DNA of 64,000 bases from Natrinema amylolyticum (GTDB taxonomy: Archaea; Halobacteriota; Halobacteria; Halobacteriales; Natrialbaceae): positions 1,798,001 to 1,862,000 of the forward strand of contig NZ_JAIWPJ010000001.1 of NCBI RefSeq assembly GCF_020515625.1, given 5' to 3'. Both the position numbers and the translations under genes were made by a program. Of the stretch, positions 6,009 through 32,171 are shown piece by piece (position 1 is the first letter of the stretch; the number at the start of each line of letters is the position of its first letter). A model generated the notes under the pieces. That model did no database searches and was not told the DNA's origin. It was given only the letters and a program-made list of their open reading frames with translations.

Positions 6009-7031
6009 TCAGGACTGATTCGCGGTCGAGGGCTGATTTCGAGTCCGGTCCGATCCTTGGTCCGACGAGGCGGCCGTATCGGCGTCCGCCGACCCGGCCG
6101 CCTCGGTGTCCGACGATCCGAGCATGTCCGTCCGGACCGGCCGCTCGTAGGAGAGGAACTCCAGCGGGACCTCCCGCTCGGCTCCGGCGAATTCGAGCGT
6201 CGCGTCGAACTCGACCGACAGGTTCGACGTCTCGTCGTTTCGGAGGTGCGTCACCCACCACTCGTCGAGCGTATCGGTGTCGATCGTCGCGTTCGCCTCG
6301 ATCGTCTGCGTGCGCTCCGGTTCGAGGAGGAGCTGCTCGCCGGCGACGCCGTCCCCGACGACGATGCCGTTCAACTGGACGGTGTATCGGATCTCCGCGA
6401 TCGGGATCGGTATCGCCGTCGGGTTCGTGACCGTCGCCGAGGCGTCGATCGGCGTTCGGTTCGGGGTGGCGTTCCCCCACTCTGCGTCCGTCTCGTTGAC
6501 GACGAACAACGTCCGTCCGCCGGCTTCGAACGCCTGGTTCTCGGTCGTCCGTAACGGCTCGAGCAGATCCGTACGGACGGTCCGGGTCTGCGTCCACCGA
6601 TCCGCCGAGCGCCGAATACCGGCGTGCTCGACGACGACCTCCGGTTCCATTCGCACTGTGGTCGTCTCGTTTCGCTCGACGTGACTCGCCCACCACGCCG
6701 GAATGTCGTCGTTGTCGAGCCACGTCGAGACGGCGATCTCGCTCTCCGTACCGGAGTCTATCTGCCGTTGGCGCTCCGTGGCGACCTCGACGTCGTTCAG
6801 CGAGACGGTGTAGGAGACGTCCGCCGCGGCGTCACCGACGCGAAGCAGTCGTGGATCGTCGACGGCGATTCGGGTTTCGATTTCGGTCCGCTCGCTCGTG
6901 ACGGTCCCCCACTCGTTGTCGACCGATTCGACCTGCGGTCGATCCACTGCGAACAGCCCGTACGCCGCGGCCGCGACGACCAGGAGGATCGCGACGAGAA
7001 GCACCATCCACGTCCGACGACCGGGAGCCAT
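6009..7031 (-). CDS. Membrane-anchored protein with two WHy/LEA14-like domains
   Basis: A 340-residue protein. Residues about 8-28 (WMVLLVAILLVVAAAAYGLF) form one N-terminal membrane anchor, leaving the rest outside the cell. Two homologous beta-sandwich units follow: the first includes VSYTVSLNDVEVATE and a WASHVERNETTTVRME element, and the second IRYTVQLNGIVVGDG with WWVTHLRNDETSNLSVEF. This tandem arrangement, with the repeated WWxxHxxNxET signature, is typical of archaeal LEA type-2/WHy proteins linked to desiccation or osmotic stress. A Ser/Asp/Thr-rich tail ends the protein. It is divergent from the LemA gene. Confidence 0.8.
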   Translation of the reverse strand: MAPGRRTWMVLLVAILLVVAAAAYGLFAVDRPQVESVDNEWGTVTSERTEIETRIAVDDPRLLRVGDAAADVSYTVSLNDVEVATERQRQIDSGTESEIAVSTWLDNDDIPAWWASHVERNETTTVRMEPEVVVEHAGIRRSADRWTQTRTVRTDLLEPLRTTENQAFEAGGRTLFVVNETDAEWGNATPNRTPIDASATVTNPTAIPIPIAEIRYTVQLNGIVVGDGVAGEQLLLEPERTQTIEANATIDTDTLDEWWVTHLRNDETSNLSVEFDATLEFAGAEREVPLEFLSYERPVRTDMLGSSDTEAAGSADADTAASSDQGSDRTRNQPSTANQS

Positions 7032-7231: not shown

Positions 7232-7831
7232 ATGAGTCTCTTCGGAACGGTTCTCCTGGGGTTCGCAGTCCTCGTCGTCGGGTACAGTGTCGTCCGATAT
7301 CTCGGCCACGCACAGACCCGGGCCGTGGAGGCCCACGAGCGCTGCGAGAAGACCTGGGCCGACATCGAGGTCCTGCTGGAACGCCGACAGTCCGAACTCG
7401 AGCAACTGATCGACCTGACGAACGAGCACGTCGCCCACGAGCGGGACTTACTCGCGGGTCTCGTCGACGCCCGCGAGAGAGCGATCGAGGCCCAGTCCCC
7501 CGAGGAGGCCGCCGCGGTCGCGGTCTCGCTCCGAGAGACGACCCGAGAAGTCTACGCGCTGTCGGACGAACACCCGGAGCTGGCGTCGGACGACCGGTTC
7601 GCGGAGCTGTCGGACTCGATCCAGCGCCTCGAGCAGCGCCTCGAGGATCGCCGCGAGCAGTACAACGAGGCCGTCGCCGCGTACAACGCGTTGCTGAACA
7701 CGTTTCCGGAGTCGGTCTTCGCCGGGCGTCAGGGGTTCACCCGCCGGGAACCGTTCGTCGCGTCCCGCAGCGCCCGCGAGGGCGTCGACGTCGGTGACCG
7801 CCTCGACGTCGGCGCGACGATGGAGACGTGA
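7232..7831 (+). CDS. LemA family protein
   Basis: A 199-residue protein with one N-terminal membrane helix (VLLGFAVLVVGYSVVRYL) followed by a long helical region, the LemA layout. Conserved LemA features include the RCEKTWADIEVLLERRQSELEQL helix and a later REQYNEAVAAYNALLNTFPESVFA segment. LemA proteins are membrane-bound with an external helical bundle; their biochemical role is poorly known. A TATA-like ACGTATAAC lies about 30 nt upstream of the ATG. The stop codon overlaps the start of the next gene by 4 nt, so the two are translationally coupled. Confidence 0.85.
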   Translation: MSLFGTVLLGFAVLVVGYSVVRYLGHAQTRAVEAHERCEKTWADIEVLLERRQSELEQLIDLTNEHVAHERDLLAGLVDARERAIEAQSPEEAAAVAVSLRETTREVYALSDEHPELASDDRFAELSDSIQRLEQRLEDRREQYNEAVAAYNALLNTFPESVFAGRQGFTRREPFVASRSAREGVDVGDRLDVGATMET

Positions 7832-8607
7832 TCCTCGCGATCGTCATCTACGCGGCGCTGGTCCTCGGCTCGGGCGCGCTCGTCGTCGTCGGAATCGGGA
7901 CCGTTCGCTCGGGCTTCGAGCGCTACGAGGAACGGGTCGCGATCGTCGATCGACCCCGCTCGTCGCTCGAGTCGGTCGCGTTCGGCGAGACGGCGCTCGT
8001 GGGGACGGCCCGACCCGACGGGGGAGCCGAGCGGGTTCCGTTCGGCGGCCGGGAGCGAGCCGTCTGCTACGACGTGACCGTCGAGGACACCAACAAACTC
8101 GAGATGGCCCACGTCGACGAGCGGATCGCGCCGCCGTTCGTCCTCGAGGGGGCGGCCGACGACGCGACCGACGTGGCCCGCATCCGCGTCGACGCGTCGG
8201 ACCTGCGGCTGGATCTCTCCGCGGACCGCCGGTGGTCGAGGGAGGTCGCCAGTCACGAGGTCCTCGAGGAGAACCTCGCGTCGTTCGCCGAGGCGAACGA
8301 CCTGCCCGATCAGGGGCTCGAGCGCGACCGAACGTACGCCTACGAGTACCTCGCGCCCGGCGACGAGGTGTTCGTCTACGGACGGGCGGTGCCGGACGAC
8401 GACGCCGCGGCCGACGGGAAGGCCGTGCTCGTGACGGCACAGGAGGACGGCGGGGGCGTCATCTCCGATAAATCGCCCGAGACGCTGCTCGCGGAGCGGC
8501 GGCGAGTACTGGTAAAGAGCGTCTCGCTGGGCGCACTCGAGGGCGTCGTCGGCCTCGCGGGGTTCCTCTGGCTGACCGGGATCGCCCAGCTTCTGCTCGG
8601 CGCCTGA
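7828..8607 (+). CDS. GIDE-domain membrane protein (E3 ubiquitin ligase MUL1-like fold, no RING)
   Basis: A 259-residue protein starting with GTG at 7828, in a GTGA overlap with the LemA stop. An N-terminal helix (AIVIYAALVLGSGALVVVGI) and a C-terminal hydrophobic segment (GVVGLAGFLWLTGIAQLLL) flank a central domain. Motifs RVPFGGRERAVCYDVTVE, PPFVLEG and the late YEYLAPGDEVFVYGRA match the GIDE domain also found in mitochondrial MUL1/MAPL. There is no RING finger, so it is not a ubiquitin ligase. GIDE proteins are often encoded beside LemA, and the pair probably works together in the envelope. Confidence 0.78.
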   Translation: MILAIVIYAALVLGSGALVVVGIGTVRSGFERYEERVAIVDRPRSSLESVAFGETALVGTARPDGGAERVPFGGRERAVCYDVTVEDTNKLEMAHVDERIAPPFVLEGAADDATDVARIRVDASDLRLDLSADRRWSREVASHEVLEENLASFAEANDLPDQGLERDRTYAYEYLAPGDEVFVYGRAVPDDDAAADGKAVLVTAQEDGGGVISDKSPETLLAERRRVLVKSVSLGALEGVVGLAGFLWLTGIAQLLLGA

Positions 8608-8608
8608 A

Positions 8609-9634
8609 CTACGACCACTCTTCATCGGCGACGACCCGGAGGCCGTCGTAGATCCCCCCGACGATCCCTTTGACCATCCAGGCCGTGAACACGCCGAGGA
8701 CGACGCTCACCAGTACGATCCCGACAGCGGCGGGGTCGGAGAACTCGGGGCCGAAAAACCGGTCGTGGACGGACACGGTGAGGAGCAGCCAGCAGAAGAC
8801 ACTCGCGAGATAGAGGACGACGTTCGCCCAGAATTTGACGGTCCGATAGATCGTGTGTGCCGATTCCGGCAGGTCTCGAGCGGACCCGCTGCCGGGACGC
8901 GGGAGCCGATCGACGACGGGGCCGAGCAGCGCGACGAACTCGATCACTCCGATAACGACGAACCCGATCGGTGCCAGGAGATAGTCGACCCATGTCCGGC
9001 CGCTGCGACCGTCGCCGGCGGCGGATCCGTCGGACTCGGCGCGCGTTCGGACGGTCCAGTCGTCGGGCGTCGGCGGTTTCGGGAACGTCGAGGCGTCCGT
9101 GAGCGCGTTCCGGCAGTCCTCGCAGTAGGTCGCCGGTGCCGCGTCCAGCTGACGGCGGGTCGTTCCCGGCGCAACGGCGCACGGCTGGCCGTCGCCGCCT
9201 TCGTGCAGATGCGTTCGCAGCCCGAGCATGGTTCCGGCGACCGACCGAGTCTCTGTGGCCAACCGCTCGCGCTCGCGCTCGGTTGGCTCGGCGCCCTCGA
9301 GCAGTCGAGCCGTCGAGACGACCCCGACCGTCTCGAACTCGCCCGCGACGCCGAACACCGCGGTCTGATCGCGACTCATCCTGATCCTGCTCTCGGTGAC
9401 GCCGACGGCGAGGTCGACGGCCGGAGTTTCGTCCCCGAGGTGCTCCAGGACCCGCGTCGCTCTGTGGTCGTCCGACTCCGTTCGCGAGGGCTCCTCGATC
9501 GGCTCTCGGATCGGAACCTCCATCTCGAACGTCTCGCGTAACGTTTCGGCGACTCGCTCACACGCCGCCGGCGACGGATCGCCGACAGGTATCACCGCGG
9601 CGTGCGGAGTGTTGCCGTGCGGAAAGACAGTCAT
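8609..9634 (-). CDS. Membrane protein with a degenerate, probably inactive archaemetzincin-like domain
   Basis: A 341-residue protein. Residues 1 to about 185 follow the archaemetzincin layout: AAVIPVGDPS resembles the VDIVPVGNVS start of the intact copy at 31650, the middle has FGVAGEFETVGVVSTARL versus FGLAYLDGSGSVVSTYRL, and the metal-binding region aligns up to the YCEDCRNAL cysteine pair versus LCGSCQRLI. The zinc motif HEIGHTYGLEH is replaced by SVAGTMLGLRT, so the catalytic Glu and the zinc histidines are missing. Three hydrophobic segments follow (about 215-240, 265-290, 300-325), making it membrane-bound. Homology is inferred by eye. Confidence 0.7.
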   Translation of the reverse strand: MTVFPHGNTPHAAVIPVGDPSPAACERVAETLRETFEMEVPIREPIEEPSRTESDDHRATRVLEHLGDETPAVDLAVGVTESRIRMSRDQTAVFGVAGEFETVGVVSTARLLEGAEPTERERERLATETRSVAGTMLGLRTHLHEGGDGQPCAVAPGTTRRQLDAAPATYCEDCRNALTDASTFPKPPTPDDWTVRTRAESDGSAAGDGRSGRTWVDYLLAPIGFVVIGVIEFVALLGPVVDRLPRPGSGSARDLPESAHTIYRTVKFWANVVLYLASVFCWLLLTVSVHDRFFGPEFSDPAAVGIVLVSVVLGVFTAWMVKGIVGGIYDGLRVVADEEWS

Positions 9635-11440: not shown

Positions 11441-12105
11441 ATGAACGTCGACGAATTCGTCAGTACGAACGAACCGAAAGACGGCGGTGAAACGTTCCAA
11501 CTCGAAAACGGCAAGCTGTTAGACGTAGCCCTCGACGGCTCCGTGATCGCGAAGGCCGGTTCGATGATCGCCTACGACGGCGACATCTCCTTCGAGGGAA
11601 AATCCTCCGCCGAAGGCGGAATCACCGGCTTCCTCAAGGAGAAAGCCACGAGTGAGGGGCCCCGGTCATGAAGGCGACCGGAACCGGTCACCTCTACCTC
11701 GCCGATCAGGAGAAGAAGATCCAGATCCTGGATCTCGACGCCGGTCAGGAAATCTCGGTCAACGGGAACGACGTCCTGGCGTTCGAGTCGAGCGTCGACT
11801 ACGAGATCCGGACGATCGAGAGCATCGCCGGGTTCTCGGCCGGCGGGTTGACGAACGTCTCCTTGGTCGGTGCCGGCAGCGTCGCGATCACGACCCACGG
11901 CGAGCCGTTGGTCCTGTGAGCGCCCGTCAGAACCGACCCCAGCGCGACCGTCGCCTGGAGCGACACGACGCCCGGCAGTCACGTGGACAGAGCGATCTCG
12001 GACATGATCGGCCAGTCCTCCGACGAGACCTACCAACTCGAGTTCACGGGTTCGGAGGGGTTCGTCGTCGTGCAGCCGTTCGAGGAGCGAACGCCACAGC
12101 AGTAG
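11441..12105 (+). pseudogene. AIM24 family protein, disrupted by a frameshift and an in-frame stop
   Basis: The sequence reads as one AIM24 (DUF124/TIGR00266-like) protein broken twice. The first frame runs MNVDEFVSTNEPKDGGETF to FLKEKATSEG and stops at 11671. Adding one base in the run GGGGCCCC near 11660 restores TPVMKATGTGHLYLADQ, which continues to GEPLVL. There an in-frame TGA (11917-11919) interrupts, and the same frame resumes as APVRTDPSATVAWSDTTPG through FVVVQPFEERTPQQ, ending at TAG 12103-12105. AIM24 proteins are small beta-helix or jelly-roll proteins of poorly defined function. Two independent lesions make a real pseudogene more likely than a single sequencing error. Confidence 0.75.
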
Positions 12106-31649: not shown

Positions 31650-32171
31650 ATGCTCGTCGATATCGTGCCGGTCGGCAACGTGTCCGCCGAGGTCAAGCGG
31701 GCCGCCTCCACCGCGTTGCGATCGGTCTACGACTGCGACGTGTCGGTCAACGACTCGCAGTCGGTCCCCAACGGAGCCTACGACTCCGACCGGAATCAGT
31801 ACTCCGCGGAAACGTTCATCCAACTCGCCGAACGGGTCGGCCGCGGCGAAAAGAACATCGCGATCACCCCACAGGATCTCTTCTACCGGCGTCGAAACTA
31901 CGTCTTCGGTCTGGCCTACCTCGATGGCAGCGGGAGCGTCGTCTCGACCTATCGGCTCCAGACCTCGAGCGACGGCGGCTTCTCGAACCAGAGCGCCGCC
32001 GACATCTTCGAGGACCGCGTCCGCAAGGAGATTGTCCACGAGATCGGCCACACCTACGGGCTCGAGCACTGCGACAACAACCGTTGCGTGATGAACTTCT
32101 CGCCGACCGTTCGCGAAGTCGACATCAAAGAAGAGAACCTCTGTGGGAGCTGTCAGCGGCTGATTAGCTGA
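31650..32171 (+). CDS. amzA: Archaemetzincin (M54 zinc metalloprotease)
   Basis: A 173-residue protein beginning MLVDIVPVGNVSAEVK. The zinc-binding consensus HEIGHTYGLEHC (HExxHxxGxxH plus C) is intact, followed by CVMNFSPTVREVDIKEENLCGSCQRLI, whose four cysteines hold a second zinc. Length and layout are standard for archaemetzincin/AmzA, a predicted metallopeptidase of uncertain substrate. The gene is divergent from UPF0146, with a TTTATG element near 31620 about 30 nt before the ATG. A second, degenerate copy of this domain is found at 8609-9634. Confidence 0.93.
   Translation: MLVDIVPVGNVSAEVKRAASTALRSVYDCDVSVNDSQSVPNGAYDSDRNQYSAETFIQLAERVGRGEKNIAITPQDLFYRRRNYVFGLAYLDGSGSVVSTYRLQTSSDGGFSNQSAADIFEDRVRKEIVHEIGHTYGLEHCDNNRCVMNFSPTVREVDIKEENLCGSCQRLIS

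Follow-up and report, generated by a model that had tools for sequence, protein, structure and literature searches.

An archaemetzincin-like membrane protein that has lost its catalytic site is encoded beside the genes for LemA and a GIDE/BAM-domain protein in Natrinema amylolyticum and other haloarchaea. We analysed a 64,000-nucleotide stretch of the N. amylolyticum genome (hereafter the window) and consider it reasonably probable (about 0.6) that this catalytically dead, membrane-tethered protein, which we call a pseudo-archaemetzincin, is the dedicated third component of a haloarchaeal LemA and GIDE/BAM membrane module. The computed evidence comprises homology to archaemetzincins, loss of the catalytic site, retention of a cysteine site, purifying selection, adjacency of the three genes, their shared pattern of occurrence and absence, and the congruence of the gene trees. 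The partnership with LemA and GIDE was the most informative feature and was absent from the initial annotation of the gene. The relevant features of the window are as follows.

7232 to 7831, plus strand: LemA, 199 aa (PF04011, E = 4.9e-31), sharing 4 bp with the beginning of the GIDE gene
7828 to 8607, plus strand: GIDE/BAM-domain membrane protein, 259 aa, with the order TM-domain-TM and no RING
8609 to 9634, minus strand: membrane-anchored pseudo-archaemetzincin, 341 aa, with a soluble M54-like domain at about residues 10–180
9212 to 9244, minus strand: former active site, residues 131–141, where SVAGTMLGLRT replaces HEIGHTYGLEH in the alignment
9113 to 9181, minus strand: stretch spanning C152, C171 and C174, the retained cysteines of the structural zinc site, unchanged in all 19 members of the family
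31650 to 32171, plus strand: intact archaemetzincin gene amzA, with its ATG at 31650 and carrying HEIGHTYGLEHC; outside the module, for comparison only

The open reading frame at 8609–9634 was scored as coding by codon usage, and its nearest copies were found in the same genus, Natrinema. The adjacent LemA is the only one of its genome, and the stop codons of the GIDE and pseudo-archaemetzincin genes are 1 bp apart. The Pfam model for GIDE (PF12483) matched three of 13 orthologues of the GIDE neighbour, at best with E = 4e-6, and the window copy was below its reach. We searched 391 haloarchaeal genomes and 125 genomes of the window organism's family, samples that overlap and are uncorrected for relatedness, so that counts describe a distribution and not independent events. 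Pseudo-archaemetzincins occurred in 19 haloarchaeal genomes from 11 genera and three families, and LemA and GIDE/BAM genes adjoined them in 18 of the 19. In the usual layout the genes converged tail to tail, and at the 15 loci measured the distance between stop codons ranged from −18 to +25 bp. This orientation, found at most trio loci, is not that of a classical operon and counts against reading the trio as a module. In one genus (g5), the trio was rearranged and co-directional. Beyond the trio, the window also contains two overlapping reading frames of 76 and 83 aa at 11441–11919, whose counterpart in relatives (cluster 4) is a single frame of ~221 aa; the split suggests one or more frameshifts, or a sequencing error, in this copy.

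In the 391-genome class sample, 17 genomes carried the pseudo-archaemetzincin and 16 a GIDE orthologue (E < 1e-70), and all 16 of the latter fell within the 17 (Fisher p = 1.6e-27, uncorrected for phylogeny). LemA was absent from the four trio-negative genomes tested (G321, G375, G005 and G213), the first three of which are also Natrinema. At the G321 locus, the trio was missing as a block, with the same flanking genes present on both sides. This trio-less locus still has the gene that lies next to the trio at window 6009–7031 (minus strand) and encodes a LEA_2 domain (PF03168, E = 1.2e-13). Gene trees of the three proteins correlated at r = 0.88–0.92, a level reached in none of 2,000 permutations. 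In the pseudo-archaemetzincin tree, G233 from one family (f1) grouped with G273 and G383 from another (f6) at support 91. As these three loci also have further neighbours in common, the grouping suggests horizontal transfer.

Could this adjacency simply reflect the inheritance of a single genomic block whose genes are functionally unconnected? Congruent trees are expected under such co-inheritance, and some loci do have additional flanking genes in common. However, the flanking genes vary from genus to genus, whereas the trio is kept together in 10 genera and three families, including the genus in which it is co-directional. Together with the loss of the trio as a unit in G321 and the lack of LemA in the trio-negative genomes tested, this makes descent as a passive block an unlikely explanation.

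Viewed from the side of LemA, the association was less strict. LemA was present in 19 of 272 genomes, and a GIDE gene lay beside it in every one of these 19, whereas the full trio was found in 12. The remaining seven LemA–GIDE pairs had no pseudo-archaemetzincin, which is thus not required for every such pair. Conversely, one genome (G254) carried a pseudo-archaemetzincin but no LemA at all, indicating that the protein can exist alone there. At three of the loci lacking it, the third gene encoded a different protein of ~270 aa with two TM segments and no Pfam family (L138:3338-4174, L139:2962-3753 and L143:6707-7513), which is a candidate alternative partner of LemA and GIDE. A further genome, G300, had one LemA and five GIDE-domain paralogues close together (L103:2946-8799).

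The initial annotation had proposed that the soluble half of the protein follows the M54 archaemetzincin plan, and profile comparisons bore this out. The NCBIfam archaemetzincin model NF033823 matched residues 14–178 of the window protein over model positions 4–170 of 170 (E = 2.7e-11, with a score under the curated cut-off of the model), and it matched all 19 pseudo-archaemetzincins. Alignment of a 13-member family profile with intact haloarchaeal AmzA by hhalign gave a probability of 99.8 and E = 1.7e-28 over 161 columns, and the family profile retrieved the archaemetzincin structures 3zvs, 4axq and 2x7m from the PDB at E values of about 1e-22 to 1e-20. The Pfam M54 model, PF07998, gave matches with E up to 1 for 10 of the 13 members, the best at 4.2e-12. 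A Pfam search with the single window protein returned no match, so that the M54 relation became visible only with family-level and NCBIfam searches; phmmer with the same single sequence against the PDB gave a chance match only. An AlphaFold2 model built from three sequences had low confidence (pLDDT 48.9), and its top Foldseek match, again archaemetzincin 3zvs, was not significant; owing to this low confidence, we excluded the predicted structure from the evidence.

Compared with AmzA (MEROPS M54), the pseudo-archaemetzincin thus has the same domain from end to end, sharing the VFG region, the glycines of the active-site helix and the C-terminal CxxC. It differs in the loss of the catalytic His/Glu site, in the addition of C-terminal membrane helices, and in that the Met-turn methionine and the first zinc-site cysteine are not kept in all members. 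In the archaemetzincin-domain tree, several deep nodes had support of 40–69, which does not decide whether the dead copies form a single clade, and the G305 copy was placed beside intact enzymes (support 84). Common descent of the dead copies therefore rests on the congruent trio trees and not on this tree.

Loss of the catalytic motif was complete across the family. HExxH, and with it HExxHxxGxxH, was absent from all 19 pseudo-archaemetzincins, in line with the initial annotation of the window copy. HEIGHTYGLEHC of the intact amzA aligned with SVAGTMLGLRTHL of the window protein, and what remains of the former motif ranged from SVAGTMLGLRT in the window to KQVGHLLGLEN (G305), SEVGYMLGLEL (genus g33) and HCAGQLFEFRS (G273). 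The description of the protein as having lost its zinc motif, however, held for the catalytic site only. C152, C171 and C174, which align with cysteines 2–4 of the second zinc site (C-x4-C-x-M-x17-C-xx-C), were invariant in 19 of 19 members. The first cysteine was kept in five genomes only, and elsewhere a nearby histidine, judged by its position in the alignment, may substitute as ligand. The methionine of this motif is not kept in the window protein.

These cysteines could also be taken to mark a zinc- or redox-sensing membrane protein, in which the Cys3(His) site signals metal binding or cysteine oxidation to LemA and GIDE. The invariance of the three residues while the remainder of the protein varies, and the histidine close to the missing cysteine, would fit a sensor, and redox regulation of the archaemetzincin Cys4 site has been raised as a speculation (PMC3427221). 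Yet the corresponding site of AfAmzA is structural, and its loss destabilises the fold in intact archaemetzincins and in CarG of Myxococcus (PMC3427221), so that stability by itself would account for the conservation. In addition, the ligand set varies between members, being Cys4 in five genomes and possibly Cys3His elsewhere. We regard a sensing function as improbable and favour a structural role of the site within a non-catalytic subunit.

All members of the family have C-terminal hydrophobic segments. Three helices had been described for the window copy, and three segments were indeed present there (residues 219–237, 272–290 and 303–321), but most relatives showed one or two at the same threshold, the alignment backed a shared hairpin of two, and segment 219–237 proved to be an extra of the Natrinema group. 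A membrane anchor was therefore kept in the relatives, although not in the form first described. Between Natrinema copies, dN/dS was 0.17–0.24 (YN00) or 0.30–0.44 (NG86), and purifying selection acted to a similar degree on the soluble and the membrane half. These ratios and the conserved cysteines ruled out pseudogene decay, and, as the initial annotation had supposed, the protein is conserved as a pseudoenzyme: the gene is a functional member of a conserved family. Outside the haloarchaea, a 392-genome sample of the phylum gave no strong match at a threshold of 1e-42, so that more distant relatives may still occur there. No relative was detected on viral contigs by intact-AmzA queries, and neither the pseudo-archaemetzincin nor its GIDE neighbour was found on plasmids.

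Other archaemetzincin-like proteins of unusual make-up were also seen. A second membrane-anchored family of about 400–430 aa (L080:9731-10939, L082:7258-8466, L083:7469-8719, L084:7980-9269 and L072:16579-17787) has the motif HLVGHxLGARH, in which the three histidines are kept and the catalytic Glu is replaced by Leu. It is without CxxC, has a multi-helix C-terminus and gives no M54 Pfam match by itself. In G136, a soluble protein lacking HExxH (LHLVATMYLVDHC; L018:1492-1998, minus strand) retains all four cysteines and has no membrane part.

An inhibitory role had also been put forward at the outset, with the intact amzA lying 22 kb away in the window. As a dominant-negative inhibitor or decoy, the pseudo-archaemetzincin would act on AmzA of the same genome, and Natrialbaceae genomes with the pseudo-archaemetzincin do carry an intact amzA as well. 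The distance is correct for the window, and in Natrinema the two genes are about 12–22 kb apart, but in other genera they are at least hundreds of kb apart or on separate contigs (for example in G101, G043, G223, G408 and G233). Moreover, nearly every genome of the family has amzA, whereas the pseudo-archaemetzincin is rare and is tightly linked with LemA and GIDE rather than with amzA. As closeness to amzA is not conserved, inhibition of AmzA lacks genomic support; we consider it very unlikely and set it aside. Least probable is that the protein is still a hydrolase acting through other residues or another metal site: the fold landmarks around the cleft (F94-G95, G134 and G138) are conserved or nearly so, but of the four catalytic residues (three histidines and the glutamate) each member has at most one left, the losses differ from member to member, and apart from glycines the structural cysteines are the sole invariant residues.

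Linkage of LemA to a metallopeptidase-type protein may have a parallel elsewhere. In bacteria, a LemA-type membrane protein is associated with the membrane metallopeptidase HtpX, which belongs to M48 and has its HExxH intact. The haloarchaeal case would be similar in this linkage and differs in that LemA is linked to an M54 relative from which HExxH is missing. For an archaemetzincin domain without catalysis, the closest comparison is CarG of Myxococcus xanthus, which binds two zincs, is inactive as a protease and pairs with CarD in a tight, obligate complex (PMC8156234; PMC3427221). CarD is a transcription factor, and in CarG the Glu is replaced by Gln whereas the zinc-binding histidines are kept (PMC8156234). 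CarG and the pseudo-archaemetzincin have in common an archaemetzincin-like domain devoid of protease activity (here predicted from sequence), an adjacent partner gene and the Cys site. In contrast to CarG, which lacks only the Glu, the pseudo-archaemetzincin lacks the whole catalytic site, is anchored in the membrane and lies beside LemA and GIDE. The two are also distinct by profile, as the window protein scored 32.1 bits against the CarG model NF033824 (cut-off 250), and no carD linkage was seen at trio loci, where the neighbours are the LemA and GIDE genes.

With CarG as precedent, the pseudo-archaemetzincin is probably a non-enzymatic binding or regulatory subunit, and we infer that it forms one complex with LemA and the GIDE protein. 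It would be anchored in the membrane by its C-terminal helices, and the soluble domains of all three proteins would lie on the cytoplasmic side and come together at the membrane. This placement, judged from hydropathy and charge alone, is suggested by the absence of a signal peptide, by the Cys zinc site, which requires reducing surroundings, and by basic residues at the membrane edges; in GIDE and LemA these lie at the presumed inner helix edges, and others are in the loop that precedes the shared hairpin. The Cys zinc site would hold the fold together, and the former substrate cleft may bind a protein or peptide partner or client without cutting it, which could serve substrate selection, scaffolding or regulation for the LemA–GIDE pair. 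It may have a signalling or scaffold role, as the initial annotation had also suggested; which process it serves is a matter of speculation, membrane-protein quality control and stress signalling being two examples. That the three genes represent a so far undescribed, co-inherited haloarchaeal trio in which the dead metalloprotease domain is the recognition or regulatory subunit is a tentative proposal, to which we give somewhat less than even odds.

Open-licence full texts on LemA with GIDE and on LemA in haloarchaea contained no description of a LemA–GIDE–pseudo-archaemetzincin module. LemA is widespread, and none of the literature found establishes its role. For the BAM/GIDE domain, common to prokaryotes and mitochondrial MAPL, the ancestral function is a stated open question (PMC4457424). 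By its sequence, the pseudo-archaemetzincin would be the second case, after CarG, of an archaemetzincin domain retained without catalysis and with a partner. If the proposed module is real, the trio would offer a simple prokaryotic setting in which to learn the function of LemA and of the BAM/GIDE domain, which mitochondrial MAPL/MUL1 also has, and, as the trio is small, optional and co-inherited in the cultivable genus Natrinema, questions about LemA and GIDE could be tested there by clean deletions.
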